From NCBI GenBank assembly GCA_029261615.1, contig JAJDAX010000260.1:1-14635 (forward strand): 14,635 nucleotides of DNA, written 5' to 3'. The notes under the pieces were generated by a model. That model was not told the origin of the DNA and did not search any database. It was given only the letters and a program-made list of their open reading frames with translations. Below are positions 761 to 14,635 of the stretch, in pieces. Position 1 is the first letter of the stretch. Each line of letters opens with the position of its first letter. This DNA comes from Nitrospinaceae bacterium (lineage in GTDB: Bacteria > Nitrospinota > Nitrospinia > Nitrospinales > Nitrospinaceae). The position numbers and the translations under genes are program-made.

Positions 761-938
761 AATGTCCGCTTCTGGCCCAGACTGTGTGAAAACCCGGACA
801 GCAAGACACCTTACAGAAAACCGACTCCGCCAGAAGCTCGTAGAGCTACGATCAGCATATTAGGAAGGGGGCAAGCATCCTCTATTTGGAGTTAGTTTTG
901 AGTTTTCACACAGTCTGGACCCAAAGCGGACGTTCATT
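761..938. repeat. MITE-like element with long terminal inverted repeats
   Basis: The left arm 761-793 and right arm 902-938 are imperfect inverted copies sharing a GTCCGCTT block and a perfect CAGACTGTGTGAAAAC block. About 108 bases lie between them with no ORF of note. The size (about 178 bp), the terminal inverted repeats and the non-coding core are what a miniature inverted-repeat transposable element looks like. It may derive from an insertion sequence, but no transposase is present here. A lone copy of the outer half of the arm is found at 1793-1822. The rest of the 644-1032 intergenic stretch shows nothing else recognisable. Confidence 0.7.
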
Positions 939-1032: not shown

Positions 1033-1578
1033 ATGAATCAGAGTATTTTAAAAATTGCTTTTACTCTTACATTTGTAATGATATTGCCAAATATCACTGG
1101 AAGCGCCTTTGCTGACACCCCACTACGGCGTCCATATCAATATATGGTTTGCTCAAAAAACGCAAAACACTGTGCCGTCGTTGATCCTCTGGCGGGGGTG
1201 AGCGTTTACGAAACAGGCAATAATGAGTTAGGAAGGAATATGCGTGAGCCACTTTGGCGCTTAAAAGGGTGGCGGCAATGGAGCTTCTTATCTAATGGAG
1301 GCCAATATTTTGTGGAGCCTTTTTTGGGATTTAATCTCCTCCCCATTGATTATGATATTTCCACAGTTATGCTAAGAATTTGGAAAGGTGGAAAACTGCA
1401 ATTTTCTTTAAAGTTGATAGATATAATTAAAGATTTTGACAAATTAGAAAGAACGGTTTCTCATTTTCATTGGGGCACATATGAGGGTTTCAATGCTGAC
1501 GGAAATTTTATTATTAAGACCGTTGAGAAAAGACGGCTCGCTATTAATATCAAAACAGGAAAAATAACTGAACAATAA
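1033..1578 (+). CDS. Secreted/periplasmic protein of unknown function
   Basis: A 181-residue protein that I do not recognise. Residues 1-27 form a typical Sec signal peptide: K7 near the start, a hydrophobic core (about 8-20), and a likely signal peptidase I site after SAFA-D. The mature part is about 154 residues with a C40/C47 pair that could form a disulfide, several Trp residues, and alternating hydrophobic segments suggesting beta structure. AAGGAG lies about 11 bases before the ATG, a slightly long but usable spacing. It stands alone between the MITE-like repeat and the left side of the Mu-like element, on the opposite strand to the element's operon. It is probably host DNA but could be cargo at the element's late end, since the element boundary is not resolved. 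No truncation is seen. Confidence 0.7.
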   Translation: MNQSILKIAFTLTFVMILPNITGSAFADTPLRRPYQYMVCSKNAKHCAVVDPLAGVSVYETGNNELGRNMREPLWRLKGWRQWSFLSNGGQYFVEPFLGFNLLPIDYDISTVMLRIWKGGKLQFSLKLIDIIKDFDKLERTVSHFHWGTYEGFNADGNFIIKTVEKRRLAINIKTGKITEQ

Positions 1579-1830
1579 TCCTTGCACCCACCCAAGGTTT
1601 GGGTATTGAGGTCAGCAACCTTCCCTTGATAGTTGCACCATATCCTAATGTTTGTTTTTTGCTGGCCATCGCCCCTTTGATCGTCACAGCGTGGGCCCGC
1701 AAGTGACCCAAATCAGAACTAAAATGCATGAATACCAGCAGCATTTTATGTAAAGAACTAAGAGATATTTCCTGTTAAACGCTCTTAAGCTGAACGTCCG
1801 CTTCTGGCCGAATACCGACGTTGATAACCT
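1579..1830. other. Non-coding interval likely to hold one end of the Mu-like element
   Basis: This 252-base stretch separates the last element gene (Mor-type) from the secreted-protein gene. It should contain either the element's right end or the deletion joint where late genes were lost. A short perfect hairpin (ACCCAA, 3-base loop, TTGGGT) lies at 1590-1604 without a T tract. Several TG dinucleotides could start a Mu-type end, but I found no convincing inverted partner or 5-bp duplication near 12.0-12.7 kb. The 64-codon minus-strand open frame across 1550-1744 has no support. Confidence 0.35.
1793..1822. repeat. Solo copy of the MITE-like arm, palindromic
   Basis: This site repeats the GTCCGCTTCTGGCC block of the left arm of the element at 761-938, in the same orientation. 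It is itself flanked by AACGTC and GACGTT, making a 30-base imperfect palindrome. It sits 8 bases beyond the stop codon of the Mor-type gene. It could be a remnant of the same repeat family or a hairpin ending the minus-strand operon, though no U tract follows it. Confidence 0.5.
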
Positions 1831-2217
1831 TTAAAACAACTCTCCCTGGCCTTCGTGGTCCTGGGCGATTTCCCGGACTTGGCGCTCGGTTAGGTTGAAC
1901 TCCCGGCACAGACGTTCCAGATAGGGTTTGAAGGCGACACCATCAGCAATGGCTGTTGCCTTTGCCCTACGGAACCGGTCCCGGATTTCTGCGTCCCGTT
2001 CATGCCTGAAGCTCTCCATACACTTATTGAAATAAATTTCCTGCCCCCCAAACTCGGCCATCAGGTCGATCACAATATGAACGGCCAACTGCTCAGCCAG
2101 GCCTTTTTCAATCTTTCTGGATTGAAGGCGTTCAGCGGTTTGGATAGCGATCGCCTGGAATTTCTCCGGTAACTGTTCAGTTTTCTGTACCCGATCTAAC
2201 AACCATTTAGGTTTCAT
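1831..2217 (-). CDS. mor: Mor-type transcription activator (Mu middle-operon activator family)
   Basis: A 128-residue protein resembling the Mor/C family, which in phage Mu activates the middle promoter by binding DNA as a dimer and recruiting RNA polymerase. Residues about 37-56 form the helical dimerisation segment. FGGQEIYFNK (56-65) matches the family's conserved GGQ-x-YIPK strand. REFNLTERQVREIAQ (105-119) is the C-terminal helix-turn-helix. Mu Mor is of similar length. Its start ATG overlaps the stop of the RepA-like gene as ATGA, so the two are translationally coupled. In Mu, middle and late genes follow Mor; here only 250 non-coding bases and a host-like gene follow, so its normal target promoter and regulon are not visible. 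Family call is good from motif and position; it could be the paralogous C activator instead. Confidence 0.75.
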   Translation of the reverse strand: MKPKWLLDRVQKTEQLPEKFQAIAIQTAERLQSRKIEKGLAEQLAVHIVIDLMAEFGGQEIYFNKCMESFRHERDAEIRDRFRRAKATAIADGVAFKPYLERLCREFNLTERQVREIAQDHEGQGELF

Positions 2218-3269
2218 TTTTCACCTGCTTTCCCCTGTGGTGTCGTGTGAGTCGCGCCTATAGACGCATCCCACACCACACCAGATCGTTTTAAGTATTC
2301 TTTCCCGGTTTTTGTGATCCTCACCCCACCGACTTTCAAGCGGGTCAAGTATCGGTCCTTTTCCAACTGGCTTATGATTCCCGCGTATTTATGGGTATCG
2401 CCGCCCAAGGTCGAACGAATAACTGTGATCGTTTGTTTTTCCCCCTGGTGATCGAGGAAGGCCAACACTTGCAGAGCACGGTCTACAGGTGCCTGCATTT
2501 GGGTGACTCCTTCAGATTCGATCCTAAACCCGGAATCATCATTCATCGACAAAACCAATTCAGGAGCCTCTTTAAAATGCTTTTGAATGGACAATAAAGA
2601 GCGGCTTTTATCGGGGTTGTTTTCGAGAAATAAATAATGGTCACCGAATCCGCTCAAGGCTCCGGAACCCCGGATGCTATCCAGTAACTCAGCCTTTTTC
2701 TTGGCTTTAGTGGAATGATGACAAACCATGATCCCGGCATCCGTCATTTGAGCCAGCACAGTGAGCCACCTTGAAACAGACTTAATCTCATTCGCCCCAT
2801 TTTCATCACCACCGAAGCAATGGGAGAGTGGATCAAATAGCACAAAGTTGGGTTTGACCTCATGGATGGCCCGGCTTATATCTTGCTGATCGATATCATC
2901 CTCAAGGCTGACCGGGGTATCGATGTTAATTATTTCCTGCCTGTAAAAATCAATTTCACGACGTTCACAAATATTTATCATGCGCCTTTGGAGTTCCTGT
3001 CTCGGGCCTTCCGGGGAATAAATAATGACTGGACCCTGGGCTACGGGGAATTCCTCAAGAAATGGAAGCCCGGATGCAATGGAAAGACACATATCAAGGG
3101 CTATGAAAGTCTTCCCGGTTTTAGGTGGGGAGCAAAACATCCCTGTCCCGCCTCGCAACCAATAATCCCGCACAAGCCAGCGCCGTTCAGCGGTCGGTGC
3201 AGACTCCGGGCTAAACCGGCTCAGCTGGAGACGACCAAAACTGAATTCTAATTGCTGGCTTGAAGACAC
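2214..3269 (-). CDS. RepA-like RecA-fold ATPase (putative replicative helicase/loader)
   Basis: A 351-residue P-loop ATPase of the RepA/AAA_25 type, known from plasmid and phage replication modules (RSF1010 RepA is a hexameric 5'-3' helicase). Visible: Walker A SPPKTGKT (47-54), Walker B NFVLFDPLS with D146, the GIMVCHHSTK segment (179-188), a GSGALSGFGDHYLFLE block (201-216), and a probable C-terminal winged helix (about 265-325). The start is GTG at 3269 preceded by AAGGAA about 7 bases upstream. Its end overlaps the mor start (ATGA). Phage Mu itself has no such gene and recruits host PriA/DnaB for replication, so this is an addition to the Mu plan. It may drive or load host machinery during replicative transposition; that role is inferred. 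It is separated from the upstream early operon by two antisense genes, so it may have its own promoter. Confidence 0.75.
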   Translation of the reverse strand: MSSSQQLEFSFGRLQLSRFSPESAPTAERRWLVRDYWLRGGTGMFCSPPKTGKTFIALDMCLSIASGLPFLEEFPVAQGPVIIYSPEGPRQELQRRMINICERREIDFYRQEIINIDTPVSLEDDIDQQDISRAIHEVKPNFVLFDPLSHCFGGDENGANEIKSVSRWLTVLAQMTDAGIMVCHHSTKAKKKAELLDSIRGSGALSGFGDHYLFLENNPDKSRSLLSIQKHFKEAPELVLSMNDDSGFRIESEGVTQMQAPVDRALQVLAFLDHQGEKQTITVIRSTLGGDTHKYAGIISQLEKDRYLTRLKVGGVRITKTGKEYLKRSGVVWDASIGATHTTPQGKAGEK

Positions 3270-3292
3270 TATTTATTTCCTTTCGGTTTGGC

Positions 3293-3298
3293 TATAAT
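3293..3298 (+). promoter_or_regulatory. Consensus -10 box for the membrane-protein pair; leaderless start suggested
   Basis: A perfect TATAAT lies 7-12 bases before the ATG at 3305 (first base of the box 12 upstream). A transcript from it would begin at or near that ATG, implying a leaderless mRNA, and no Shine-Dalgarno sequence precedes the ATG. The matching -35 region is poor. The box also lies just upstream of the GTG start of the RepA-like gene on the other strand, so the region could serve as a divergent promoter. Confidence 0.4.
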
Positions 3299-3304
3299 TT
3301 GTAT

Positions 3305-3829
3305 ATGGGCTGGAGACGAACCGAATTTGAACCGCTATTGTCTGATACCACTTTAAAGATCAGGCGGAATCTCCTGTTTGCCTGTGCTGGTGGATTGATA
3401 ATTAAAACCTATGATTTAAAATTATTTAAATGGCTCGTGGATGCGAGCGCACAAGAAGCCCGTTCCATTTTTGCGGTTTTTATTTTTTATTTATTTTTTG
3501 AGTGGTTGAATTATGCGCTCCCTGAAAGTTACCCTCATTTGAATGGGGAAATAAGAATAAAAAAACTTGTGAAAATTCGAGATGATTCCAGGGAGCCAAC
3601 CCCCTCTGCCCAGCTTGCAGAGGCAGCTCATGCCGACTTGACCCCGGAAGACCGTGAAATAGAGCAAGGAATGAAGGATGCAGATAACAGAGCAGTAGAA
3701 TGGAACAATAGGAAAATAATATTTTTTGATATTGGCTTCCCTACATTATTTGGTTTAATTATGTGCATATACTTCATGAGTGACCTTAAAGCTTTTATTT
3801 CATCAGTTTTCAAAGCATTATTCTCTTGA
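3305..3829 (+). CDS. Membrane protein of unknown function, first of a paralogous pair
   Basis: A 174-residue protein from ATG 3305; an upstream TTG at 3260 is in frame, but it lies before the -10 box and inside the opposite gene. Plan: short N-terminal tail, basic LKIRRN motif, a hydrophobic segment (about 20-37), a second one (about 54-75), a cytoplasm-like charged middle (about 80-135), and a C-terminal hydrophobic segment with FFDIGFPTLFGLIMCIYF. The same plan and motifs recur in the next gene (LKVRRN; LLFDVALPLAFGLIICICF), so the two are diverged duplicates. Both are antisense to the element's operon and AT-rich, as expected for 'moron' cargo in a prophage. Superinfection exclusion or another membrane-located defence role is a guess from location. 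I do not recognise the family. Confidence 0.65.
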   Translation: MGWRRTEFEPLLSDTTLKIRRNLLFACAGGLIIKTYDLKLFKWLVDASAQEARSIFAVFIFYLFFEWLNYALPESYPHLNGEIRIKKLVKIRDDSREPTPSAQLAEAAHADLTPEDREIEQGMKDADNRAVEWNNRKIIFFDIGFPTLFGLIMCIYFMSDLKAFISSVFKALFS

Positions 3830-3865
3830 GTTAAAATCACACTTCACCTTATCCAAAATCCCAAC

Positions 3866-4522
3866 ATGGAAATACCCGAAATTAAACTCGAGTCCCCTTT
3901 AAACGAGAACGCTTTAAAAGTTAGGCGAAATTTATTACTTGTCTGCACCATTGGATTGATTGTTAAAGTGTTTGGATCCGAAATTGAAAGAATCAAAATC
4001 CTACCACTTTTAATCGAGGCAACTCCGCAACAAGCATTGTCAATAATTTCCATATTTTTATTTTATTTATGGGGCGAATGGTTAGTAATTATTTTTTCAG
4101 AAGTCTTCCCTTGGTGGAAAATCAACAGAATTAAAAAAAAATGGATCAGAGACAAAAGAGATTTTGATAAACAGGAACGATTTTTTAATGACATGTTAGC
4201 GACTGAAACCCCAACAAATAATCCAATCAAACAAAATTATGAATTAAGTGAGTATGGGAAATACAAAAGGCTTCTTTCACATGTGAAGTCAAACTCATTA
4301 ATTAAGGACAATGAAGTCATCAAATTTGAAAATGATTTTGAAAACCTAGAAAACAAAGACATCCTTGTCCGCTCTTCTGAATTCAAGGCGTTTGATAATT
4401 TTACTAAAAGAGTTTTGCTATTTGATGTGGCGCTTCCATTAGCTTTCGGTTTAATTATTTGCATATGCTTTTTATTCGACTTTATGGATTTTGTGGTAAA
4501 GGTTTTTTCTTATTTCTTCTGA
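3866..4522 (+). CDS. Membrane protein of unknown function, second of a paralogous pair
   Basis: A 218-residue protein, 36 bases downstream of its paralogue and co-directional. N-terminal LKVRRN (17-22) leads into a hydrophobic segment (about 22-38). A second runs across ALSIISIFLFYLWGEW (about 57-72) and onward. A charged, Lys/Glu-rich region (about 85-180) follows, longer than in the first copy, and then a terminal segment with FDVALPLAFGLIICICF. This predicts three membrane spans with one soluble domain. No Shine-Dalgarno is visible before the ATG. Base composition is visibly AT-richer than the neighbouring element genes, a sign of separate acquisition. It is convergent with the tail of the minus-strand operon, overlapping the last tiny ORF by 13 bases. 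The function is not known. Confidence 0.7.
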   Translation: MEIPEIKLESPLNENALKVRRNLLLVCTIGLIVKVFGSEIERIKILPLLIEATPQQALSIISIFLFYLWGEWLVIIFSEVFPWWKINRIKKKWIRDKRDFDKQERFFNDMLATETPTNNPIKQNYELSEYGKYKRLLSHVKSNSLIKDNEVIKFENDFENLENKDILVRSSEFKAFDNFTKRVLLFDVALPLAFGLIICICFLFDFMDFVVKVFSYFF

Positions 4523-4566
4523 TTTTTATCGTTTATTTGCCATTGAGCACAATATAAAAGGCTCAT
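4510..4566 (-). CDS. Possible 18-residue peptide at the end of the early operon
   Basis: An 18-codon ORF beginning with MSLLYCAQWQ whose ATG overlaps the stop of the preceding 33-codon ORF (TGATG), the same coupling style as the rest of the operon. It ends inside the 3' end of the convergent membrane-protein gene. Being so short it may be chance. Confidence 0.25.
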   Translation of the reverse strand: MSLLYCAQWQINDKNQKK

Positions 4567-4667
4567 CACCTCGTCTTTGAGTAAAAATTAAAAGTCAAAA
4601 CGACCACGAATCCCGCCACTAAAATACCCGCGAGAAATGCGAACTCGGCAATATAGGGGCTACACAT
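4566..4667 (-). CDS. Small single-span membrane peptide (33 aa)
   Basis: A 33-residue ORF starting inside the last codons of the zinc-binding protein gene (ATGTGTAG arrangement, 8-base overlap). It holds one uninterrupted hydrophobic stretch, AEFAFLAGILVAGFVVVLTF (residues 7-26), followed by a basic end (SKTR), which predicts one transmembrane helix with a cytoplasmic C terminus. The overlap with its upstream neighbour and the clean membrane segment argue for a real gene. Small membrane peptides are common in phage early regions, for example as host-envelope or lysis modulators, but no specific role can be assigned. Confidence 0.5.
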   Translation of the reverse strand: MCSPYIAEFAFLAGILVAGFVVVLTFNFYSKTR

Positions 4668-4911
4668 GATCTATATTCCCTCGATTTTTTAATTCTTTGT
4701 TTAGTGCGTTGATTGCTTTGCCAAGTCGCCTGATGTAATCCTTCGGGAAGCGTCCTACTTCGTTCCTGTATTTCTGTGCTCTATGCATATCCATCCGTTC
4801 AGGGTCCGGCATCATCCATTGACAGTTGACGCAGAAAGGGAAATCCGGTTTTGCTTCATCTTTGCAATCCGGGTTTGAACAGGGTTTGAATTTTTTGGGT
4901 GAAGGGTGCAT
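4660..4911 (-). CDS. Small zinc-binding protein of the element's early operon
   Basis: An 83-residue protein from ATG 4911, with AGGAAA about 5 bases before it; an in-frame TTG at 4956 would add 15 residues. Residues about 11-29 carry a Cys4 knuckle, CSNPDC followed by CVNC, typical of a zinc ribbon. The remainder is charged and helical (PERMDMHRAQKYRNEVGRF, then a Lys/Asn-rich tail). Small phage proteins with this layout, a Cys4 motif followed by a W-M/V-P segment and a basic helical tail, are frequent and usually uncharacterised. It lies 94 bases after gemA and is coupled to the next tiny membrane ORF. DNA or protein binding is inferred from the zinc motif only. Confidence 0.6.
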   Translation of the reverse strand: MHPSPKKFKPCSNPDCKDEAKPDFPFCVNCQWMMPDPERMDMHRAQKYRNEVGRFPKDYIRRLGKAINALNKELKNRGNIDHV

Positions 4912-4926
4912 TGGGTTTCCTGATTT

Positions 4927-4994
4927 GCCGTGGGGCGAGGTGGTTGGTTTGCACAAAATCCACTCTGGGCGAATTTGTATTCCCGCCCCACGGC
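4927..4994. repeat. Perfect 11-bp inverted repeat between gemA and the zinc-protein gene
   Basis: GCCGTGGGGCG at 4927-4937 and its exact complement at 4984-4994 are separated by 46 bases. In the minus-strand transcript they could pair into a GC-rich stem directly upstream of the zinc-protein start (4911). There is no U tract, so it is not an ordinary terminator. It could modulate translation or transcript stability. Confidence 0.45.
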
Positions 4995-5005
4995 GTTAGT
5001 CATTT

Positions 5006-5635
5006 TCAATTTCTCTTCTCCAGAATTTCGAATAGTTTTGTCATGGAAACTTTTGGCATGGTGCGGTGGCCACGCTTGCGACCTTGCTGGATAAAGTGGA
5101 TCAGCTTTTCTTCTGCATCCCCCATGAACCGGAGTTCCCATTCGGTCAGACTCTCCGGGCGCAGCGCTCGGATTGCTTTCACCAGGTCACCAGCAAGGGA
5201 AGCGATCAATGCGTAAATTATTTTCTGACCGTGCCTGTGCGTTTGAGGCCAGGGTTGTTTCACGATTCGTCTGGTGAAATCGATCTTTGCCTTGCTCGAC
5301 CAGTTAAAAAACTGAAAGAAACAATCGATAACGTGCTGTTGAGTTTCCTTGATCGGGGCATCCGGATCGGCGGGAGCTTGTGGCAGTTTCTTTTTTGATA
5401 CCGGTTTTTGCGCGGGTTTGAAATGAGGCGCATCTTCAAGGCTTTTCAATTGTTTTATAAATTGTGTCGCCTGAACCTTGGTCAGGTCTTTGCTGGACCT
5501 CACACCGAAAAGCCCCTGCATCATGTCCCGTCTGGAATCTTCCGTGAATGGCTGGGTTTTCGCGATTGCTCCGGCAAGGGTATGAATCAGTTTGACCTGA
5601 TCACCCGTGATGGGTTCTTCCTGGAGTGCGTTCAT
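5006..5635 (-). CDS. gemA: GemA-like regulatory protein (DUF1018)
   Basis: A 209-residue protein placed as Mu gemA is: after gam and before mor. Residues 8-68 carry the pattern I associate with GemA/DUF1018: T-x-x-Q-x-K-L-I-H-x-L-A (ITGDQVKLIHTLAGAIAK), then an SRRDMMQGLFGVRSSKDLT segment and a helix QATQFIKQLKSLED. In Mu, GemA modulates host gene expression and DNA topology. A basic, Pro-rich linker (about 70-88, KKKLPQAP) is followed by a second helical domain (about 95-209) that makes it longer than Mu GemA. Start ATG is preceded by AAGGAAGG at good spacing. The family assignment rests on recalled pattern plus synteny, so it is moderate. Confidence 0.6.
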   Translation of the reverse strand: MNALQEEPITGDQVKLIHTLAGAIAKTQPFTEDSRRDMMQGLFGVRSSKDLTKVQATQFIKQLKSLEDAPHFKPAQKPVSKKKLPQAPADPDAPIKETQQHVIDCFFQFFNWSSKAKIDFTRRIVKQPWPQTHRHGQKIIYALIASLAGDLVKAIRALRPESLTEWELRFMGDAEEKLIHFIQQGRKRGHRTMPKVSMTKLFEILEKRN

Positions 5636-5732
5636 TATTCACCTTCCTTCTTAAGGTGGACGAACCGGGTGAAATCTTTCAGGAATCGCAGGCGAATTAC
5701 GCCAGTCAGGCTTTTCCTGTGGGTTGCGGTGA

Positions 5733-6053
5733 TTAGTTGTTTGAAAACCGGGAGTCACCGGGTTTTTTAATGGAAATAAATGCAGCGGCTTTTTCAGATT
5801 TAAAAATGTACAGGAGAGTTAACCCGAAGCGCCTGGCGGCCTCCACAATAAACTCTATGGCCTGTTCTCTTGTTTCGATAAGGCCACCGTATCGGCTTTG
5901 ATCAACTGAGACGATTCGGCATTCTTCATCGGTAAGAGGTTTGTTTTTGACCAGGGCTTTAAAAAGGTCTCGACGTAAAGACCCATCTCCATCGTCCAGT
6001 GTGCTCACGAGTCGCACCGTATTTTGTATTAGCATTTCTTTTGAATCGCTCAT
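5733..6053 (-). CDS. Hypothetical early protein (106 aa)
   Basis: A 106-residue protein that I do not recognise. The ATG overlaps the stop of the preceding 25-codon ORF (ATGA), so it belongs to the coupled operon. The N-terminal half is acidic and helical (LVSTLDDGDGSLRRDLFKAL), followed by LTDEECRIVSVDQSRYGG. The C-terminal half contains an amphipathic helix (QAIEFIVEAARRFGL) and a short hydrophobic strand. No signal peptide, membrane span or metal motif is seen. By position between gam and gemA it matches the variable small early genes of Mu-like phages. About 97 bases follow before gemA. Confidence 0.55.
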   Translation of the reverse strand: MSDSKEMLIQNTVRLVSTLDDGDGSLRRDLFKALVKNKPLTDEECRIVSVDQSRYGGLIETREQAIEFIVEAARRFGLTLLYIFKSEKAAAFISIKKPGDSRFSNN

Positions 6054-6127
6054 TTGAGGTCGAGCTCCATTTGTAATTTTTCAAAGTTAAATCTTTTTGA
6101 TGACGCTGGTTTAACCATCACAATCAT
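6050..6127 (-). CDS. Coupled 25-residue mini-ORF
   Basis: A 25-codon ORF (starts MIVMVKPASS, ends LQMELDLK) filling exactly the gap between gam and the 106-residue gene. Its ATG overlaps the gam stop and its stop overlaps the next ATG, both as ATGA. Two precise overlaps make it likely to be translated, either as a small protein or as a device passing ribosomes onward. The peptide is basic then amphipathic, and no function can be given. Confidence 0.45.
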   Translation of the reverse strand: MIVMVKPASSKRFNFEKLQMELDLK

Positions 6128-6699
6128 TTCAGATTTGCATCCATCCTTTTAAGGCGCTCTTTCATTTCCTTTTCGGCATCCGTCTGGACCGTGAAGGTTT
6201 CTTTCCGACCTACCTTTAAACCGACAGATTCGAGATATATTCCGTCTATAGCGCCTTCTGCGAAATCACGGAGGATAGATTCCTTATCCAGCTTTTCTTC
6301 CGTCCGGATGTAAAGACCATCGGACAACCTTTTAAGTCGGGCAATCACGGCATCGGCTGTTTTACAAATATTCGTGAGCAGGGAGACAGCGGGTTTCCCG
6401 GCGTGAAAAACAAGTGAACCGTATCGAAGCTTGAAGGTTTGTTTGCCTGTTTGTTTCCGGACTTTTTCTGCATATATTTTTAAATCCTTAACAAGCCGAT
6501 TTCTTTCAGCGGTCATACCAGCCGAATCACCCTCTGACCGTTTCTGATCGAATTTTTCCTTAACTTTCATAATTGCCCTGGCTTCGGATTGACCCCAGTA
6601 CTGGAAATCCATATCGATTGCATGGCAACGCTTAAGAGCCGCTACCGCCTGCTCCGTCGTTTCGATCCCAACCTTAGGGCTTTTCTTTGACTTACTCAC
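6124..6699 (-). CDS. gam: Host-nuclease inhibitor Gam-like protein
   Basis: Mu Gam binds double-stranded DNA ends and shields them from RecBCD and other exonucleases; it is a bacterial Ku homologue. I place the start at GTG 6699, giving 191 residues (Mu Gam is 174), because AAGGAGG lies 5 bases upstream. The longer frame from 6843 would add 48 non-homologous residues and overlap another small gene. Residues about 12-95 are long charged helices (AVAALKRCHAIDMDFQYWGQ and following), then the beta region KQTFKLRYGSLVFH and SVGLKVGRKETFTVQ near the C terminus, the pattern expected for Gam. It follows the transposition genes, as in Mu. It overlaps a 56-codon ORF upstream by 8 bases and a 25-codon ORF downstream by 4. 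Confidence 0.8.
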   Translation of the reverse strand: MSKSKKSPKVGIETTEQAVAALKRCHAIDMDFQYWGQSEARAIMKVKEKFDQKRSEGDSAGMTAERNRLVKDLKIYAEKVRKQTGKQTFKLRYGSLVFHAGKPAVSLLTNICKTADAVIARLKRLSDGLYIRTEEKLDKESILRDFAEGAIDGIYLESVGLKVGRKETFTVQTDAEKEMKERLKRMDANLK

Positions 6700-6862
6700 A
6701 ACGACCTCCTTTTTTTTCTGTGTTGTTCCTGACAATTTCCGCTTCGACCTTCTTTGACTCAAGTACGGGTTTGCGCTTCCACATAAACTTTCCGAGGATG
6801 CGGCGGACTCGTTTGAACTTTGATTTCGGCAGGGGATAGGCATTGACCTGCCAGTCCCGCAT
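6692..6862 (-). CDS. Small basic protein (56 aa) between the MuB-like operon segment and gam
   Basis: A 56-codon ORF that fills the space before gam. Its ATG overlaps the stop of the 67-residue gene (TGATG), and its last 8 bases overlap the gam GTG start. The product begins MRDWQVNAYPLPKSKF and is strongly basic (FKRVRRILGKFMWKRK), ending in a polar tail. A nucleic-acid-binding role is possible from charge alone. The exact overlaps at both ends are the main evidence that it is a real gene. Confidence 0.55.
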   Translation of the reverse strand: MRDWQVNAYPLPKSKFKRVRRILGKFMWKRKPVLESKKVEAEIVRNNTEKKGGRCE

Positions 6863-7065
6863 CACGATTCACCGCCAAACCGGATGGGCTCACCCGGTTC
6901 TGGCAATGGGGTGTCTTCAACGTAATCTGTGAGCTCATCACGTAATTCGAGAATTTCTTCAAATGAAAGTTCAAATTCAGATTTACGCAACACAAGTTTG
7001 TGGCACCTTTTCTTCTTCGTCGAGATGTTGGTTATCTGAATCAATTTCTTTAGTTTCTGAGGCAT
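6862..7065 (-). CDS. Hypothetical small early protein (67 aa)
   Basis: A 67-residue protein starting at ATG 7065 with AAGGAG 9 bases upstream. The first 83 bases overlap the 3' end of the MuB-like gene in another frame. The N terminus is very basic (PQKLKKLIQITNISTKKKR); the second half is acidic and helical (SFEEILELRDELTDYVED) with a Pro-rich end. The good ribosome site and the coupled downstream ORF support it as a gene. I do not recognise the family. Confidence 0.55.
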   Translation of the reverse strand: MPQKLKKLIQITNISTKKKRCHKLVLRKSEFELSFEEILELRDELTDYVEDTPLPEPGEPIRFGGES

Positions 7066-8053
7066 TTCGTTTTGCTCCTTTTTTGCTTGTCCTGTATTGC
7101 GGCTTGAGTTGGGAAATAGAATGTTTCGCCGCCTCTTCCAGGAGCCGCCTGGACATGGGGGTGTTTTGTTTTTGACCGCGTGTTACGGCCAAAGTGAGGA
7201 TGCGGATTACAAGATGCAATCCGCCGTAATATTGATTGGCTATTGTGAGGAGGTATTCGAATTCTTCTTTTTTCAAGCGCCCTTTCATAAGCCCATGAAT
7301 GACCTGGTCAAAATCCTTTTCGCTGAATTTTGGCTCAACCACTAATACGTTCATGCGAGCCGCCATTTGCTGGTAAAAGCTTTCATCGGATTTAGTGGTT
7401 ACTGAGTCGCGGACTTTATTGTTCCCGGCGATCACGATTCCCATTCCGAGATCATGCAGGGCTCGGATCACTTCGAATATGGTGGTGTTTGGTCCGCTGT
7501 CTGGATTGAGTGCCTGGGCATCATCAAGGATCAGCATTTTTCCACCGGCTGAGGCAAGGTCACATATCCGGTTAAAAAGGACTATCTGATTACCGGCGGT
7601 CGGAAGGTTGAGTGAGAGTGCGATTTGTTGAAGAAAGGACACGCGCCCGCGCATGTATGGGTGGCACTTGATGTAATAGGTATTTGGCTTTTGGGAGTAA
7701 ATCTTCAAGGCGGTTGTTTTGCCGAGGCCGGAATCTCCAACGATGACTGATATCTGGTTATAGGCGTGGGCCATCACGCAGAAGCGTTCTATTGTTTTTG
7801 CCTGGCGGGTGAGGACATATTCTGTTTCGATGATGACGGCTTGTCGCTCGCCTTCCAGTGAGAAATATTGATTTATTTTTTCAATGACGTTTTTATTTGA
7901 GCCTTTGTAGGTGCCGCGCATCCAGGCGGACAGGGTTGCGGCGGAAATTCCTGCGGCTGAGGCAAACCGGTTATTTGAGTTTCCGGGCTTTGCTACCCAC
8001 TCCTCTACTTTTTTGCGCGCGGTTCTCTCTTGTGGTTCTAAAGCTTTTTCCAT
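6983..8053 (-). CDS. MuB-type transposition ATPase (target-selection AAA+ protein)
   Basis: A 356-residue AAA+ ATPase related to Mu B, which coats target DNA, activates the MuA transposase and gives target immunity. An N-terminal helix-turn-helix (about 28-50, ASAAGISAATLSAWMRG) resembles the lambda-repressor-like N domain of MuB. Walker A is GDSGLGKTT (106-114) and Walker B MLILDDAQ (173-180). Sensor-1-like GIVIAGN (205-211) follows, with a candidate Arg finger at R233 in AARMN. The C terminus (about 320-356) is a charged tail absent from Mu B (312 aa). GGAGG lies 5 bases before the ATG, and the gene starts 17 bases after the transposase stop. The transposase-ATPase pairing supports a working Mu/Tn7-class transposition module. 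TnsC or IstB relationships are less likely given gam and mor nearby. Confidence 0.85.
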   Translation of the reverse strand: MEKALEPQERTARKKVEEWVAKPGNSNNRFASAAGISAATLSAWMRGTYKGSNKNVIEKINQYFSLEGERQAVIIETEYVLTRQAKTIERFCVMAHAYNQISVIVGDSGLGKTTALKIYSQKPNTYYIKCHPYMRGRVSFLQQIALSLNLPTAGNQIVLFNRICDLASAGGKMLILDDAQALNPDSGPNTTIFEVIRALHDLGMGIVIAGNNKVRDSVTTKSDESFYQQMAARMNVLVVEPKFSEKDFDQVIHGLMKGRLKKEEFEYLLTIANQYYGGLHLVIRILTLAVTRGQKQNTPMSRRLLEEAAKHSISQLKPQYRTSKKGAKRNASETKEIDSDNQHLDEEEKVPQTCVA

Positions 8054-8070
8054 TGGTTCCTCCGTTTCAA

Positions 8071-10065
8071 TTACCCGTTGATGGCGATATCGTCAAGAAA
8101 GTCCAGTGAGTCGTCATCATCATTTAATTCCTGGTCGAGAATTTCCAAATCATCAACGAAATCCAGTTCGTCGGTTTGTTCCAGGTCTCGGCCTTTGCGT
8201 TCAGCTTCCTGCTCTGCGATTGACTTGTATTGAGTTGGCTTTAGTCCTACGCCTTCCAGTGCGGCGTTGGCTTCCTTGAGGTGGACTGCTTTACGCTTCT
8301 TGATGCCTTTAATTTTTTTGGTGCCTTCGGCGTTTTCGATCAGGTCCATCATTGGGTTGTTGGTCAGTGTTTCGATGGCATTTTTTTGCTCTCTCAAAAT
8401 CGCGCGCTGGGCTTTTCTTAATTCACGCCATTCGACTGCGGTGAAATCCACAAGACGCGAATCAATAGCGGTGGTCAGGAATTCGTTTTCAAGGTTGAAA
8501 ACGTAAAGTTGCCCAGCTGATTCAGAAGAGACGCGGACCTTTACTTTTTGACCGTCGAAACTGACCAGATTGGGACTGACATAAATCCCTGTTTCAAAAT
8601 CAATTCCTTTTTTCTGAACTATGCGGGTGCCCATTGGCTGGAGAAGGATATCCAGTGCGCGGACGTTCACGACGTGACGCTTTGGCATGGTGCATTGCGC
8701 GGCCTTGATTTCCGGGGCCATCTTGATTCCACCGTGGCGGCGTTGGTGATAGACATTTTCAATCCACCGGTCGATGATTTCCTGTAGTTGTTCCGGCATC
8801 AGGTTTAATTCAATTTGCCCACCACTCATGAAACGCTGAGCAAACGTTTTTTGCGCTTCGATATCTTTTCGCTCTGCAACGCTGTGGCCTATGTAGCCCT
8901 GGAGCTCTTCAAAGAGACCGGTTGAGAGTGTCCGGAAAAACCGTTCTATATGGGGTTTCTTTTCTGGAGAGAAGGGCGGGACCACAACCTGATTGATGCC
9001 GAGGGATTCACAAATAGTCTTGACGTGTTTCGAGGTGAAATCTTTGCCGTTATCGGAAACGATATTGGTGGGTAATCCCCAATCGATTATGGATTCCCGG
9101 ATTACATTTGCGATGGCGTGAGAGTTTGACGTTTTGGAAACATGACACTTGGCTCTTCTGGGATAGATGTCCAGCATTCCGGCTATGTTATAGCGTTTAT
9201 TGTCTGCAAGCAGGAGGTCGGCTGGAGTCGAATCGGTTTCCCAAAAGTGATTAACGTAGGTGGCTTTTTCAGATTCTGACCCGTAGGCCACCATGTGCTG
9301 ACCTTTCCAGGCATCCGGGTTTTGAATGAATTTAAAAAGTGACGCGTTATTTTTTTTCCAGGTATTCACGAAGCGGCGAACGGTGGAGCCTGAGATTTCT
9401 GTTTCCGGGAATTTCAAAGCAACATATTCAAATATGCGTTCAATTCGACGGTGGGGCTTGTCTTTGATTAGTGAGAGGATATAACCTTGCTGGACCTTTG
9501 TTAATTTTGCCCGGCTCGATCCAAACTTTTTGCAAGCGAGACCCTGGAGTCCATGCTCTTGATAGCCTTTCCGCCATCGGTAAAAAGTGTCGATACCAAT
9601 ATTATTTTTGGTACACAATTCTTTTAAAATTGCCGTCCTGGATTCCGACGTTTGAATTTCTTTTTCGATTGATTGAATTATTTCCAGGCGCTGTTCTATT
9701 ATTTTTTTGTGTTCCGGCGGTTGAGAATCAAACCACGGCAGGGCCGCCTCGGCGGTGCAAGACTCGATGGCAACCGATTTGCTTCCGTTGTGCTGAGGCG
9801 ACCCTTTCGTGCCTCCACCGGTATCCTGGCGTTGCTTTGGTTCGGTGGGGGTGGGGTTTGATGAATAAAATTCCAGCACTTTTTTTTGTGCTTTTTTTGA
9901 GAGACTATCTGCCCGGATTTCTGTGCGGGTTTTTCCTTGCTGGTTTCCATTTATTTTTCGGGTGGTGTATTTGCCCTTCTGGATCCGTTTTTCTATCGCG
10001 CGGGATTTGCAGGACTCCAGAGAGGCCGCGCCATCTATGCTGACCCACTTCGCGGCAAGGCTCAT
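8071..10065 (-). CDS. MuA-type DDE transposase
   Basis: A 664-residue transposase of the Mu A class (Mu A is 663). The N-terminal end- or enhancer-binding domain begins AKWVSIDGAA and includes the region up to about 70 (SLSKKAQKKVLEFY), as in MuA. A second DNA-binding helical part covers about 140-240, including FYRWRKGYQEHG. The RNase H-fold core has D278 in ETDSTP, D338 in VSDNGKDF and E374 in PHIERF, so the last two acidic residues are 35 apart (D35E), shorter than in Mu A. QRRHGG (441-446) and a C-terminal beta-barrel-like part follow. The tail (about 629-660) is extremely acidic (DELDFVDDLEILDQEL). The start overlaps the upstream gene stop (ATGA). All catalytic residues are present, so activity is plausible. 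Confidence 0.93.
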   Translation of the reverse strand: MSLAAKWVSIDGAASLESCKSRAIEKRIQKGKYTTRKINGNQQGKTRTEIRADSLSKKAQKKVLEFYSSNPTPTEPKQRQDTGGGTKGSPQHNGSKSVAIESCTAEAALPWFDSQPPEHKKIIEQRLEIIQSIEKEIQTSESRTAILKELCTKNNIGIDTFYRWRKGYQEHGLQGLACKKFGSSRAKLTKVQQGYILSLIKDKPHRRIERIFEYVALKFPETEISGSTVRRFVNTWKKNNASLFKFIQNPDAWKGQHMVAYGSESEKATYVNHFWETDSTPADLLLADNKRYNIAGMLDIYPRRAKCHVSKTSNSHAIANVIRESIIDWGLPTNIVSDNGKDFTSKHVKTICESLGINQVVVPPFSPEKKPHIERFFRTLSTGLFEELQGYIGHSVAERKDIEAQKTFAQRFMSGGQIELNLMPEQLQEIIDRWIENVYHQRRHGGIKMAPEIKAAQCTMPKRHVVNVRALDILLQPMGTRIVQKKGIDFETGIYVSPNLVSFDGQKVKVRVSSESAGQLYVFNLENEFLTTAIDSRLVDFTAVEWRELRKAQRAILREQKNAIETLTNNPMMDLIENAEGTKKIKGIKKRKAVHLKEANAALEGVGLKPTQYKSIAEQEAERKGRDLEQTDELDFVDDLEILDQELNDDDDSLDFLDDIAING

Positions 10066-10547
10066 TCTGTTTTTCCTTCCCGAAGTGAGGTTTCAAGTTC
10101 TTTTTCTTTTTTTTCGAGGCGATCTTTTGTGCGTTTGATTCGATCCAGTTCCAACTGGACAACTTCTCTGCTTTTAAGGAGGCGGTGGTTTGTTGTGGTG
10201 GCCAAAATTTCTATTAATTTGAAATCGCCGGTGACTTCACAAAATGCCGGTATCATTTCGGCGGGGATTCCCCATCTTTTATTTCCGTTGTGATCCACCC
10301 CTTCGGAGGTTTTTGCTCGCGATTCTGAGGACCAGTTATCGAGTGTGCTTTTAGTCAGGTCGATTCCTGTGAGGCGAGACATCTCGGCAACAATCTGGCA
10401 CCGATCAATTGCTGATACCCTTATTGCTTCACTGACGGCTGCTCTAATTCGGATATCCACGTCCAGACTTCCTGGGAAGAGGGTTTGCTGATATTCTTTG
10501 CCGTCAGCGCGTTTCCCTTTATTTGACGTAGACCGGTGGGTTTTCAT
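10062..10547 (-). CDS. Conserved early phage protein upstream of the transposase
   Basis: A 161-residue protein, coupled to the transposase by ATGA. LFPGSLDVDIRIRAAVSEAI (23-42) is followed by a segment with a helix-turn-helix look (VAEMSRLTGIDLTKSTLDNW, about 53-72). Then come GIPAEMIPAFCEVTGDFKLIEIL (about 92-114) and a coiled coil (about 128-155, LDRIKRTKDRLEKKEKELE). I recall similar proteins just upstream of Mu-like transposases, usually called hypothetical or phage regulatory. DNA binding and dimerisation through the coiled coil are inferred. No Shine-Dalgarno precedes the ATG, and a terminator-like hairpin lies just upstream, so expression may depend on read-through. Confidence 0.6.
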   Translation of the reverse strand: MKTHRSTSNKGKRADGKEYQQTLFPGSLDVDIRIRAAVSEAIRVSAIDRCQIVAEMSRLTGIDLTKSTLDNWSSESRAKTSEGVDHNGNKRWGIPAEMIPAFCEVTGDFKLIEILATTTNHRLLKSREVVQLELDRIKRTKDRLEKKEKELETSLREGKTE

Positions 10548-10568
10548 GTTTTAAAATTCACGTATAAG

Positions 10569-10618
10569 TTAAAATTAAAACCCCGGTGGTAGTGCTTCTC
10601 CAGGCGGCTACCACCGAG
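10569..10618 (-). terminator. Intrinsic terminator or attenuator between the Ner-like gene and the transposition genes
   Basis: On the minus strand a 12-bp stem (9 bp perfect, CGGTGGTAG with CTACCACCG, extended by CC/GG and one G-U pair) with a 15-base loop is followed by a U-rich run (TTTTAATTTTAA). It lies 10 bases after the stop of the Ner-like gene and 35-71 bases before the next start. The form is that of a rho-independent terminator, so it should limit transcripts reaching the transposase. Confidence 0.7.
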
Positions 10619-10627
10619 GCCGGGAAG

Positions 10628-10843
10628 TCAGGGCCGTTTCCGCCCTGCCTGATTCTTGATAAAGAGTTTTTTTTCCGGGCGGTCAAAATATCTGGCGATT
10701 CGGAAACGGAGTGGGCCGGATTCCCTTGTGCAATTAATCACCTTATTGAGGTGGGCACGGTCTACACCCAGTTCTTCGGCCAGTTCCGTTTGGGTCAGGC
10801 CTTTTTCTACAATTAATTGATTGACTGGGTTATTAAGATTCAT
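10628..10843 (-). CDS. Ner/Cro-like early repressor
   Basis: A 71-residue helix-turn-helix protein, first gene of the leftward early operon. The motif is LTQTELAEELGVDRAHLNKV (about 16-35). The remainder is short and basic (RKRP end), so there is no separate oligomerisation domain. Size and place match Mu Ner (75 aa), which turns down early transcription and the repressor promoter during lytic growth. It is divergent from the S24-type repressor across 92 bases. Sequence alone only says XRE-type HTH; the Ner role comes from position. Confidence 0.75.
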   Translation of the reverse strand: MNLNNPVNQLIVEKGLTQTELAEELGVDRAHLNKVINCTRESGPLRFRIARYFDRPEKKLFIKNQAGRKRP

Positions 10844-10889
10844 CTCAGATTTTAATTGTGTCTTAATTAGTTTTTAAGTGTCTTTTGGC

Positions 10890-10919
10890 AAAATAAACCA
10901 AATATTAAGTAATTGTCAA
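10890..10919 (-). promoter_or_regulatory. Early promoter of the leftward operon
   Basis: On the minus strand a perfect -35 TTGACA (10914-10919) is followed after 18 bases by TATTTT (10890-10895), matching 4 of 6 positions of the -10 consensus. It is followed by about 46 bases to the Ner-like ATG. This is the only strong candidate promoter for the transposition operon. Confidence 0.55.
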
Positions 10920-10922
10920 TTA
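10910..10922. promoter_or_regulatory. Probable operator in the repressor/Ner switch region
   Basis: A perfect interrupted palindrome, TAATTG-T-CAATTA, covers the -35 box of the early promoter. A related looser site, TAATT with AATTA around GTGTCTT, is seen at 10853-10869, and GTGTCTT recurs at 10878-10884. Binding of the repressor or Ner-like protein here would block the early promoter. No Shine-Dalgarno precedes the repressor ATG at 10936. Confidence 0.45.
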
Positions 10923-10935
10923 AAAAATAATTAAA

Positions 10936-11601
10936 ATGGAAAATATTGATTTAAAAGAGGTTGGGGAGAGGGTCCGGAGTTTACGGGGTGATTTAAGCCA
11001 ACCTGTATTTGCTGCCAGGCATGGCGTGAAGCAAAATGATATAAGTCGGCTTGAAACTGGCCGCGCTTTAAACCCTGCACCCGGTCTGCTATTGAGTATT
11101 GCCAAGGATTCGGCGGTCTCTATTGAATGGCTTCTGACCGGTGACCACAAAGCACCGACTGGAAATTTGGTTGCGGAAGATGATTTTATTTATGTCCCAA
11201 GGCTTCAAGTTACTGCGGAGGGTGGCGAGGGATTTGAAAACCGTGAAGAGCCTGTTGTTGACCATTTAGCCTTCCGAGCAGATTGGGTTCGTGATCAACT
11301 TCGTATTAAGCAGGAATATTTGGTTTCGATCCAGGCAAGTGGGGACAGCATGGAGCCCACAATTTCTGAAGGTGATGAACTGCTGGTCGATACTTCAAGG
11401 CAGGAAATATCGGTAGATGGTATATACTGTTTAAAATTATCTATTGGTCAGTTGGTCGTTAAGCGTGTTCAAAGAAAGCCTGATGGCGAATTGATTATTG
11501 TCAGTGATAATCCTAAATACCAGCCTTTCCCTATGACACCAGGTGGGAGTGAATCAATGAGTGTCATTGGTCGGGTGGTCTGGATTGGGAGGAAATTATG
11601 A
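10936..11601 (+). CDS. S24/LexA-type phage repressor (XRE HTH plus self-cleaving peptidase domain)
   Basis: A 221-residue immunity repressor. The N-terminal XRE helix-turn-helix covers about 8-67 (FAARHGVKQNDISRLETG). The C-terminal S24 peptidase domain shows catalytic Ser138 in SGDSMEPT and Lys176 in LVVKRVQ, the Ser-Lys dyad of LexA, lambda CI and P22 C2. The linker (YVPRLQVTAEGGEGFENR, about 86-103) would hold the cleavage site; a classical Ala-Gly is not present. Phage Mu's own repressor lacks this domain, so here RecA/SOS-triggered induction is likely. It is divergent from the Ner-like gene and coupled by ATGA to the membrane protein behind it. The ATG has no Shine-Dalgarno, suggesting weak or leaderless translation. 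Confidence 0.85.
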   Translation: MENIDLKEVGERVRSLRGDLSQPVFAARHGVKQNDISRLETGRALNPAPGLLLSIAKDSAVSIEWLLTGDHKAPTGNLVAEDDFIYVPRLQVTAEGGEGFENREEPVVDHLAFRADWVRDQLRIKQEYLVSIQASGDSMEPTISEGDELLVDTSRQEISVDGIYCLKLSIGQLVVKRVQRKPDGELIIVSDNPKYQPFPMTPGGSESMSVIGRVVWIGRKL

Positions 11602-12023
11602 ATTTTCTATATTGGATTGTTGTTGTTGTCGTGGTTATTTGGAATGGTTTTGATGCAAACAAAAGAGGGGCTTCTCTGGTATGGCCCGTTGGTACACTTA
11701 TTTTGCTTCCGGTTTTTTTGCCCGTCTATTTCGCTTTTCGCCCATTATTACCTGGTGAAACCAGAGATGGGGGCCGTGGTTGGAATGTCCTTAAAAACCT
11801 GGCTCTTTCCTGGACAGCATTAATGGTTTATGGAGGGATGGCTGGTTTTTTTGCTGCGGCTTCTCAGAATGCAGGTAAAGTTCAAACTGGTACTGAGGCC
11901 GCCGCTTCGGCAATTGGGACTGGGATCGGGATGGGGCTAATAGTTATGGTCTGGCTTATCCCAATGATATGCATGTTGGTGCTCGGATTTTTCCTGAAAA
12001 AGAGTGTGGTTGAGGAGGGGTGA
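11598..12023 (+). CDS. Four-helix membrane protein co-expressed with the repressor
   Basis: A 141-residue inner-membrane protein with hydrophobic spans at about 2-17, 27-47, 65-87 and 105-134. The loop between spans 2 and 3 carries RPLLPGETRDGGRGWNVLKN. A GGAGG ribosome site lies inside the end of the repressor gene, and the ATG overlaps its stop (ATGA), so it should be made whenever the repressor is, that is, in the dormant state. Genes in this position in temperate phages often act in superinfection exclusion or lysogenic conversion; that role is inferred from context. It is the last gene before the non-coding interval expected to hold the element's left end. Confidence 0.7.
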   Translation: MNFLYWIVVVVVVIWNGFDANKRGASLVWPVGTLILLPVFLPVYFAFRPLLPGETRDGGRGWNVLKNLALSWTALMVYGGMAGFFAAASQNAGKVQTGTEAAASAIGTGIGMGLIVMVWLIPMICMLVLGFFLKKSVVEEG

Positions 12024-12487
12024 CTTGTCCCGGCTTCACTTTTCCACAAAACGGCATGGCTCCAATTTCATTTTCAAAAATCACATAAAGCTTTGTAAAA
12101 TAAGTGTGGTGGCATTTTTGCAAGGATGCCACTACCCAGACTCTCCCGATATTTTCTGGAGTCAAAAGCCTGACGTGCTTCCGGAAGGTTTATAAATGGC
12201 CTTGAAACGGTATTTCACTGGTGTGCTAACGACCTTCAAAAGCCCTTAAATCCCACCGTTCAAACTCCCCACCCAAGTAGCCCGCCCTGTTCACAGGCCC
12301 TTAAAATGGGTACCGTCCATTTTCACCTCAAATAAGAAAACCTTTCCCTTCTCAAAAATAAAACCCCTATAAACCTTTAATAAAAAAGGAATAAAGGGGT
12401 AATAAAACCGCTGTCTCGTAACCTACCGTTTTTCTTAACTCAGGTGATAGTTCACATCCCCAACACTACTTTGGATGACTTAAAACC
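12024..12487. other. Non-coding interval likely to hold the element's left end
   Basis: No supported gene. A hairpin at 12106-12135 (10-bp stem with one G-T, arms around GTGGCAT and ATGCCAC) has no T tract. A TGAAA/TTTCA palindrome lies near 12202-12218. On the minus strand two similar 15-base blocks, GGTTTTATTTTTGAG and GGTTTTCTTATTTGAG, occur about 27 bases apart near 12325-12365; they could be transposase-binding repeats, but this is speculative. An AT-rich palindrome with ACCCCT and AGGGGT arms covers 12363-12400. No clear match to the 1579-1830 interval was found. Confidence 0.35.
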
Positions 12488-13774: not shown

Positions 13775-14635
13775 ATGACCCAAACTCAAACATCCCAATT
13801 TCGCATCGAGTTCGACCAGCTAGGCCCCTTGCCGGCCGATGCCCGTGAACGACTGGGATACTATCAACAGTTTAAAAAACTGGTGCGTGAGGGCAAGGAC
13901 AAGATTCGCAACTGGCACCACGGCGGGGCCGGGGGTCGCGAAGTGGTGCAGGCTCACACGGCGCTGATCGACAGTGTCCTCCGGCACGTGATCGAAACAG
14001 TCAAGTCGTTGGACACTTATAAGGATGAGGATTTACTCGACCAGTTTGTGCTGGCGGCAGTTGGCGGCTATGGACGCGGAGAGCTCAACCCGGCCTCGGA
14101 CATCGACCTGCTGTTTTTGCTATCGAAGAAAATGAACAAGAAGCTCGACACCTTCATTCAGGAGGTGATTTCGGTGCTCTGGGGAATCGACCTTGAAATC
14201 GGTCACAGTTGCCGGACCATCCGCGAATGCCAGTCTCTTGCAGCCGAAGACCAGACAATTCGCACGTCCATGATCGAAACCCGTTATCTCATCGGCGACA
14301 AATCACTCTACGAAAAACTGGTGAGCTCTATTGAAAAAAATGTCCTGAAGAAAGGCGCAAAGGAATTCCTTAATGAAAAACTCAAGGAAAAATCTGAACG
14401 CTACGAAAGCGGCGAGCATGTTTCCAGTAATCCTGAGCCCAATCTGAAGGAAGGCTTCGGCGGCCTGCGTGACTATCACGTCGCGCTCTGGGCTGTGGCG
14501 GTGCGTTTCGGTGTCTTGTCCTTCAGGGAAATCAAAGGCGATGAAGTGGTGAGCCCGCAGGAAATCAGCCGGCTTGAACAGTCGGTCAACTTCACCCTGC
14601 GCGTGCGCAATGAATTGCATTACCAGACGGGTAAG
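13775..14635 (+). CDS. glnD: PII uridylyltransferase/uridylyl-removing enzyme (3' end outside window)
   Basis: GlnD is the bifunctional sensor of glutamine that uridylylates PII proteins (GlnB/GlnK) when nitrogen is short and removes UMP when glutamine is plentiful. The first 287 codons are present out of roughly 850-900 usual for the family. The nucleotidyltransferase motif GGYGRGEL (97-104) with ASDIDLLF (D109, D111) is intact, and the family signature EPNLKEGFGGLRDYH (221-235) follows. The HD and ACT domains would lie past the right edge. The ATG is chosen because an in-frame stop lies at 13730-13732 and no earlier start exists; no clear Shine-Dalgarno is visible. GlnD places the host among bacteria with PII control by uridylylation. 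It is a host housekeeping gene, not element cargo. Confidence 0.93.
   Translation, partial: MTQTQTSQFRIEFDQLGPLPADARERLGYYQQFKKLVREGKDKIRNWHHGGAGGREVVQAHTALIDSVLRHVIETVKSLDTYKDEDLLDQFVLAAVGGYGRGELNPASDIDLLFLLSKKMNKKLDTFIQEVISVLWGIDLEIGHSCRTIRECQSLAAEDQTIRTSMIETRYLIGDKSLYEKLVSSIEKNVLKKGAKEFLNEKLKEKSERYESGEHVSSNPEPNLKEGFGGLRDYHVALWAVAVRFGVLSFREIKGDEVVSPQEISRLEQSVNFTLRVRNELHYQTGK

Follow-up and report, generated by a model that had tools for sequence, protein, structure and literature searches.

Mu-type transposable phages (saltoviruses) follow a usual programme in which a repressor is set against the early promoter, Ner provides feedback, MuA and MuB carry out replicative transposition, Gam gives protection, and Mor makes the switch to late genes. 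The stretch of DNA analyzed here, below called the window, is 14,635 bp long and appears to be the entire contig JAJDAX010000260.1 of a Nitrospinaceae bacterium (assembly GCA_029261615.1). Like the Mu-type phages, it has a Repressor/Ner switch, MuA (phrog_310, with the DDE residues), MuB (phrog_296), Gam, GemA and Mor, in the order of the Mu early genes. Unlike them, it has an extra AAA_25 ATPase gene before mor, its MuA is 20-39% identical to the best 20 of the 156 matched phage records, and the late genes and the right end are unseen in the contig. Our analysis indicates that the window very probably contains the left arm of an ordinary Mu-type transposable prophage, located upstream of glnD in a Nitrospinota bacterium; its continuation past mor was either lost by deletion or lies beyond the contig end. 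This high confidence is meant for the reading in its broad form, which includes deletion, truncation and misassembly; the chances of the first two are close to even, and the third is a minor case. None of the data support an autonomous movement of the visible part.

All named early genes (S24 repressor, Ner-like protein, regulator, MuA, MuB, Gam, GemA, AAA_25 ATPase and Mor, in this order) have open frames. The original prediction, made from the letters of the window, described the repressor, Ner-like, MuA, MuB, Gam, GemA and Mor genes as present and apparently intact, and this is borne out by the domain matches at the places given in Table 1. In particular, the MuA residues D278, D338 and E374 are retained and coincide with invariant positions in the alignment of 17 MuA proteins (A1), and the MuB ATPase adjoins MuA. 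The tight coupling of the genes, also claimed, holds for most of the operon, but the plus-strand membrane genes at 3260-4522 split the small open reading frame (ORF) at 4660-4956 from the ATPase gene.

The relatives of the element were collected with the A1 profile, which was used on genome contigs and viral contigs and yielded 151 MuA loci (71 in genome contigs and the best 80 of 580 in viral contigs). We searched these loci by blastp for relatives of the window proteins and looked for late genes in the loci named here. Late genes (for lysis, head or tail) are located downstream in all five loci with the same backbone that extend at least 2.3 kb past mor, namely C58 (contig JAJDBH010000058.1 of genome G002, locus L002), L072 (IMG/VR contig 3300033050_000064), a locus of genome G013, and loci C53 and C18 of genome G030, the order in C18 being judged from AAA_25 to the portal. 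L001, L005 and L007 are uninformative on late genes, as their contigs stop short of mor, while L250 (genome G010) ends 1.1 kb past mor.

C58, from a Nitrospinaceae genome, is the one complete prophage among the relatives in this MuA clade, 39,989 bp long, with the first base at 745 and the last base at 40733. As in Mu-type phages, its ends are TG...CA (it starts with TGTAGAGG and finishes with GGTTACA), and the 5-bp target duplication TAATA is present on both sides. Like the window, C58 has ner, the regulator, MuA (40-42% identity), GemA, AAA_25 and Mor, and their order is identical in both. The Ner-like protein of the window is 43-48% identical to the products of genes upstream of muA in L001 and C58, and GemA is 32% identical to those in C58 and L072 (blastp). 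Unlike the window, C58 is complete, with accessory zones and late genes, and in the muB position it has a shorter ATPase gene (identified by eye) with no blastp match to the window MuB. Past mor we found genes for the terminase (phrog_2, 2e-30), portal (phrog_113, 2e-128; Mu portal at 20004, PF06074, 2.5e-109), head protease (phrog_328, 8e-70), major head protein (phrog_371, 1.5e-104) and tape measure protein (phrog_1533, 3e-86). Accessory genes form an island past mor; the ORFs resembling a late operon start after it, about 5.3 kb past mor (by eye), and the terminase gene, the first virion gene tested there, starts 8.5 kb past mor. L072 shares with the window the regulator, MuA (44%), MuB (36%), GemA, AAA_25 and a mor-like gene; the difference is a holin gene (phrog_3427, 2e-26) located 1.3 kb past the mor-like gene, the sequence ending 2.3 kb past the latter.

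The Mu portal was found in three of the 77 Nitrospinota genomes (G002, G013 and G030) and in none of the 14 control genomes. In G013 the genes gam, AAA_25 and mor are followed by the Mu portal 3.6 kb past mor, and in G030 both loci have AAA_25 with the Mu portal downstream. MuA of these two genomes is missed by the A1 profile, which matches four of the 77 genomes at 1e-10, strongly in G001 and G002; the matches in G039 and G063 (E about 1e-12, covering 94 and 65 profile positions) were not counted as family members. The transposase of G013 is a diverged member of phrog_310 (5e-98). The original prediction had named the outcome that would make this element an ordinary prophage remnant: the occurrence elsewhere of the same element with mor followed by head and tail genes, combined with a unique deletion in the present copy. 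The same kind of element does occur elsewhere with such genes, while the uniqueness of a deletion in the window is neither shown nor refuted.

The prophage of G013 is an observation of its own. Contig C1 of this genome contains, at about 1566000-1606000 (loci L202, L190 and L203), a complete-looking Mu-like prophage with the backbone of repressor, gam, AAA_25 and mor and the diverged MuA, which suggests that transposase modules have been exchanged.

The AAA_25 gene is located directly upstream of mor or a mor-like gene in all six loci read (the window, C58, L190, L192, L250 and L072). The downstream gene matches mor families in L190 (phrog_532, 3e-9), L192 (phrog_836, 1e-13) and L250 (phrog_836, 2e-13). 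The ATPase had been regarded as added cargo and, as such, as an argument for a self-standing element; within this group the argument fails, and the gene was rejected as cargo of the window copy, given the same position in all six loci. Judging from this position, AAA_25 belongs to the backbone of the phage group. Most of the Mu-like loci collected lack it: with the window protein as query, blastp matches were obtained in only two of the 151 MuA loci. The AAA_25 profile (A2) contains the members from G002, G013 and G030, and their matches to it are by construction; the A2 matches in G017, G078, G012 and G063, weak or lacking the mor context, were excluded from the six. Single-protein scans of viral contigs with MuA and with AAA_25 gained nothing further.

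Table 1. Features of the window (position 1 is the first base of the contig).
Feature	Position	Strand	Evidence or remark
Chlorite-dismutase-like (cld) gene, secreted product, truncated by contig edge	2..643	+	PF06778 2.6e-7
174-bp inverted-repeat element, resembling a miniature inverted-repeat transposable element (MITE)	761..934		84% identical to element 3' of mor in L002
Secreted-type protein	1033..1578	+	252 bases from mor
Imperfect palindrome directly 3' of mor	1793..1822		both arms found by script
Mor/C-type late activator, final gene of early operon	1831..2217	-	PF08765 1e-14; phrog_532 1e-13
AAA_25 (RecA/DnaB-like) ATPase	2214..3269	-	PF13481 1e-32; Walker A kept
Membrane protein, accessory gene	3260..3829	+	36% identical to 3866..4522 protein
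Membrane protein, accessory gene, paralogue of 3260..3829	3866..4522	+	36% mutual identity
Small early ORF	4660..4956	-	no confident match, PHROGs included
GemA	5006..5635	-	PF06252 2e-8
Small early ORF	5733..6053	-	no confident domain or family match
Gam end-protection protein	6124..6843	-	PF07352 2.5e-12
Small ORF overlapping muB end	6862..7065	-	no Pfam match
MuB target-selection ATPase	6983..8053	-	phrog_296 1e-46; Walker A GDSGLGKT
MuA transposase	8071..10065	-	phrog_310 1e-86; PF09299; PF00665; D278, D338, E374
Early regulator	10062..10547	-	phrog_2345 5e-30
Ner-like helix-turn-helix protein	10628..10843	-	PF01381 1e-6
CI/S24-type repressor	10936..11601	+	PF00717 1e-17; phrog_4 2e-47
Small membrane protein	11598..12023	+	directly 3' of repressor; four hydrophobic segments; weak phrog_6586, E 0.005
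Second site similar to the terminal one, in inverted orientation	12322..12343	+	16 of 22 bases match
Candidate left terminus, 5'-TGTGAACTATCACCTGAGTTAAGAAAAACGG read inward, outermost base 12456	12426..12456	-	matrix ranking
Host glnD, start of host flank on left-end side, outside the element	13775..14635	+	PF08335 3e-19

The element had been delimited as 1831..12023, but it reaches further, as a candidate left terminus is located at 12456, 433 bp beyond the last gene on the repressor side and next to TCCCC at 12457-12461. This site was first seen by eye and tested afterwards. The right-end matrix, made of two sequences (the C58 right terminus and a right-end-like sequence of L007, itself unproved), ranks it first among all 29,210 window positions and among the 1,837 positions starting with TG, and the matrix of five termini together also places it first. 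Moreover, when the 750-bp end region was shuffled 300 times, the score of the site was never reached. The left ends of L001, L002, L005 and L007 align with each other and begin with TG. By these comparisons, a left terminus of the prophage at 12456 is supported but not proved. The inverted site at 12322..12343 is a putative MuA-binding site. No right terminus was found on the plus strand of 1-1850: the highest right-end score there, 9.43, is no better than that of shuffled sequences (mean 9.09), and TCCCCTG is absent from the same interval. Neither was a 5-bp target duplication found in the contig, and a direct comparison of one side of the window with the other gave no inverted repeat at 18 of 24.

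The host flank on the left-end side is formed by glnD. The identity of the window GlnD is 89% with G013, 71% with G014 and at most 61% with other matches, and 71 of the 77 Nitrospinota genomes have a match. G013 is thus the closest host relative by GlnD, the host being most likely a Nitrospinota bacterium near it, and the nucleotide match to it runs from 13585 onward.

Several observations weigh against an ordinary prophage. First, no virion gene is present in the contig; the description of the module as lacking virion genes is correct for the contig, but the contig stops 1,830 bases past mor. Second, none of the named early genes is damaged, although damage could be present in a decaying remnant, and a functional unit is therefore possible. 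Third, the closest MuA relatives listed are 41-52% identical, the best other matches among them being P0002 (47%) and P0004 (52% over three quarters of the length); on these identities, the "same element" found elsewhere would mean the same family rather than the same copy. These relatives come from 7,997 best word-sharing candidates that were scored, the best 120 of the 378 passing being listed. Fourth, the mor product of L002 is 34% identical to the window Mor (3e-13, blastp) and has no PHROG match at 0.01, and the mor-like gene of L072, with no PHROG match and no tblastn match to the window Mor, was called by its position and similar start. Finally, the matrix of left termini alone places 12456 at rank 307, and three of 40 whole-window shuffles reach its score, which makes its significance moderate only.

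Another reading, which the original prediction considered worth testing, is that the unit is a self-standing non-viral Mu-type transposon or a satellite using the capsids of another phage. Should this be correct, the element would represent a Mu lineage that, as a rare exception, lives without virion genes. The early operon is intact and the contig contains no late gene, and a potential helper exists in the closest host relative, the complete-looking Mu-like prophage with diverged MuA in G013. On the other hand, no right terminus is seen in 1-1850 and the ends are not closed around the early genes in the contig, the late activator Mor is retained without a visible target, AAA_25 is a backbone gene of the group, and late genes are present in all five backbone relatives with at least 2.3 kb past mor. 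Nor did the MuA search contain, among the matches listed, any near-identical copy of the window MuA, and it shows none of the independent insertions of the same unit that the original prediction proposed to look for, the matches being given without locus context. Taken together, we consider a transposon or satellite very unlikely; the ATPase as a backbone gene, the relatives with late genes and the lack of a right terminus leave it without support. A comparable system is the satellite AH14b with its helper AH14a (PMC4936722), the likeness being in the idea of a smaller element packaged in the capsids of another phage. In the window, no capsid-hijack gene and no other capsid- or packaging-redirecting gene was recognised among the scanned proteins with Pfam, PHROGs and PADLOC, several ORFs being matchless. 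It is about as improbable that a Mu-type element shed its virion genes to live as a transposon or satellite of related Mu-like prophages in the same hosts, where a retained Mor would answer or act on helper late promoters.

Within the preferred reading of a prophage left arm, what lies past mor separates the particular cases. In the first of them, a deletion running from the 3' side of mor into downstream host DNA would have removed the late genes and the right end, with the palindrome at 1793 or the MITE-like element at 761 as a possible break point; the remaining copy would have one end and would be unable to form a transposition complex alone. The lack of a right terminus in 1-1850 agrees with this. 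Moreover, the dismutase-like gene and the gene at 1033-1578 resemble genes of the host type. In viral contigs 18 and 34 stretches, respectively, matched their alignment patterns, but none of these was confirmed as a relative. The neighbors in the six dismutase-like loci for which they were listed look non-phage by eye (one of them being a transposase of the insertion sequence type), and the GC content at third codon positions of the dismutase-like gene (0.59) is closer to that of glnD (0.65) than to that of muA (0.51).

The two boundary genes are, however, patchy or moved and give no proof of native host DNA. The dismutase-like gene is present in 13 of the 77 Nitrospinota genomes (11 strong matches). 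Its product in the window is 80% identical to that of G011 and 75% to that of G013, while for GlnD the corresponding values are 55% and 89%. In the tree it is placed outside the group of G011, G027, G013 and G048 (support 92/93, not starred) and inside a group of six (99/99), and the branches between the distantly related hosts G011, G027 and G013 are very short. These data suggest a recent horizontal spread of the gene, as judged from sequence comparison. Because its tree departs from that of GlnD, the gene appears to be mobile and is not a marker of the native host; both tree and identities led us to reject it as proof of the host boundary, and whether it is a host gene or cargo is undecided. 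The "host-like" gene near mor of the original prediction is a fair description of the gene at 1033-1578, but a relative of its product (62-63% identity) is found in only one of the 77 genomes, with neighbors that are not of phage type by eye, and it does not prove native host DNA; accessory cargo and host gene are likewise undecided here. In addition, neither an empty site nor a boundary can be defined in G013, where the glnD side is alignable only from 13585, and cld is located 59 kb away, inverted relative to glnD. The named early genes being still intact is a further point against a deletion, to which we give somewhat less than an even chance.

In the second case the view is truncated: the prophage would be whole, the contig stopping within the accessory island that separates mor from the lysis genes, and the late genes would lie further on. 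The clean deletion of the late region, one of the two options of the original prediction, is plausible but not shown, as the contig may end in an accessory zone of the kind seen in its relative. In C58 the region 3' of mor contains an inverted-repeat element 84% identical to that at 761-934 and an island of opposite-strand genes, about 5 kb, with the same kind of repeats; a longer version of the mor-side palindrome is also located there (C58:9835-10008). Of the palindrome hits in the 3.5-Mb G002 genome (at most 1 mismatch), eight of 14 are in the two accessory zones of this single prophage, against 1 hit of the control pattern. The contigs of L001, L005 and L007 likewise end within the early region of such prophages, and the dismutase-like gene has moved horizontally and in G023 adjoins these palindromes. 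Against truncation, no relative of the dismutase-like or 1033-1578 protein was confirmed in viral contigs, in L072 the holin gene already appears 1.3 kb beyond the mor-like gene, and the 174-bp element is apparently not confined to prophages, with copies up to 92% identical in G065. The palindromes are also found outside prophages: the 7 hits in G030 all lie off its two prophage contigs, and the hits in G001, G013, G014 and G011 (four of the eight genomes or records searched) are no more numerous than those of the control. We regard truncation as a possible, though tentative, explanation, standing clearly below an even chance.

The third case is an assembly join at the 174-bp repeat, by which an unrelated chromosomal end with cld was set beside the prophage. 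The repeat is multi-copy in G065, where all three near-full copies (86-92% identity; contigs C335, C330 and C117) are within 330 bp of the contig starts as numbered, which suggests that the element breaks assemblies. Elsewhere full copies are few (one in G002, none in G013, G014 and G023), and a wrong join is not needed for the observations; we consider it unlikely.

The gene set of the prophage arm implies the usual Mu programme. The S24 repressor would keep the divergent early promoter off, and upon induction Ner and the second regulator would tune this promoter. MuA and MuB would then perform replicative transposition from both ends, with Gam protecting the DNA ends, and the AAA_25 ATPase probably assists in building the replication fork on the strand-transfer product. 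Mor would next turn on the late genes; its targets, not visible in the contig, may have been either deleted along with the right end or left past the contig end behind the accessory island. The small membrane protein gene directly 3' of the repressor is probably expressed in the lysogen, perhaps with a putative role in superinfection exclusion. The two membrane genes at 3260-4522 have no PHROG or PADLOC family match.

No Nitrospina Mu-like phage was found in the literature: PMC8705779 gave no match on the searched terms, and the excerpt of PMC11009272 contains only Mu-like prophage proteins of another phylum. The window and its relatives add a Nitrospinota group of Mu-type prophages with an AAA_25 ATPase just before the late activator, and they illustrate that the apparent lack of a particle in a virus can be an effect of a contig end or a repeat.

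The palindromes form a pattern of their own. In C58, imperfect palindromes of about 30 bp (AAYGTCCGCTTYKGG...) are located between the accessory genes of both accessory zones (9835-14651 and 37097-40570), and the island 3' of mor includes a RelA/SpoT-like candidate defence gene (PDC-S33, 3e-101). In G023, contigs C156 (L226) and C20 (L227) contain rows of genes with the same palindromes in between; the dismutase-like gene of this genome (C20:5863-6471) is beside such palindromes, and a fragment of another is found at the start of C156. The palindromes look like separators of mobile gene units; a search of literature listings gave no account of them.

Two further observations concern the locations of the related prophages. 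In L001 (4455-7384) and L007 (1269-5357), from two Nitrospinaceae genomes, the prophages are located close to the beginning of one and the same host gene, about 84% identical at the nucleotide level, and this common location may reflect either shared ancestry or a preferred site. Moreover, at about 4590-5357 of L007 the right-end-like sequence of another Mu-like element stops 4 bp (GTTA) short of the prophage's left terminus, as though one element had been placed head to tail with a remnant.

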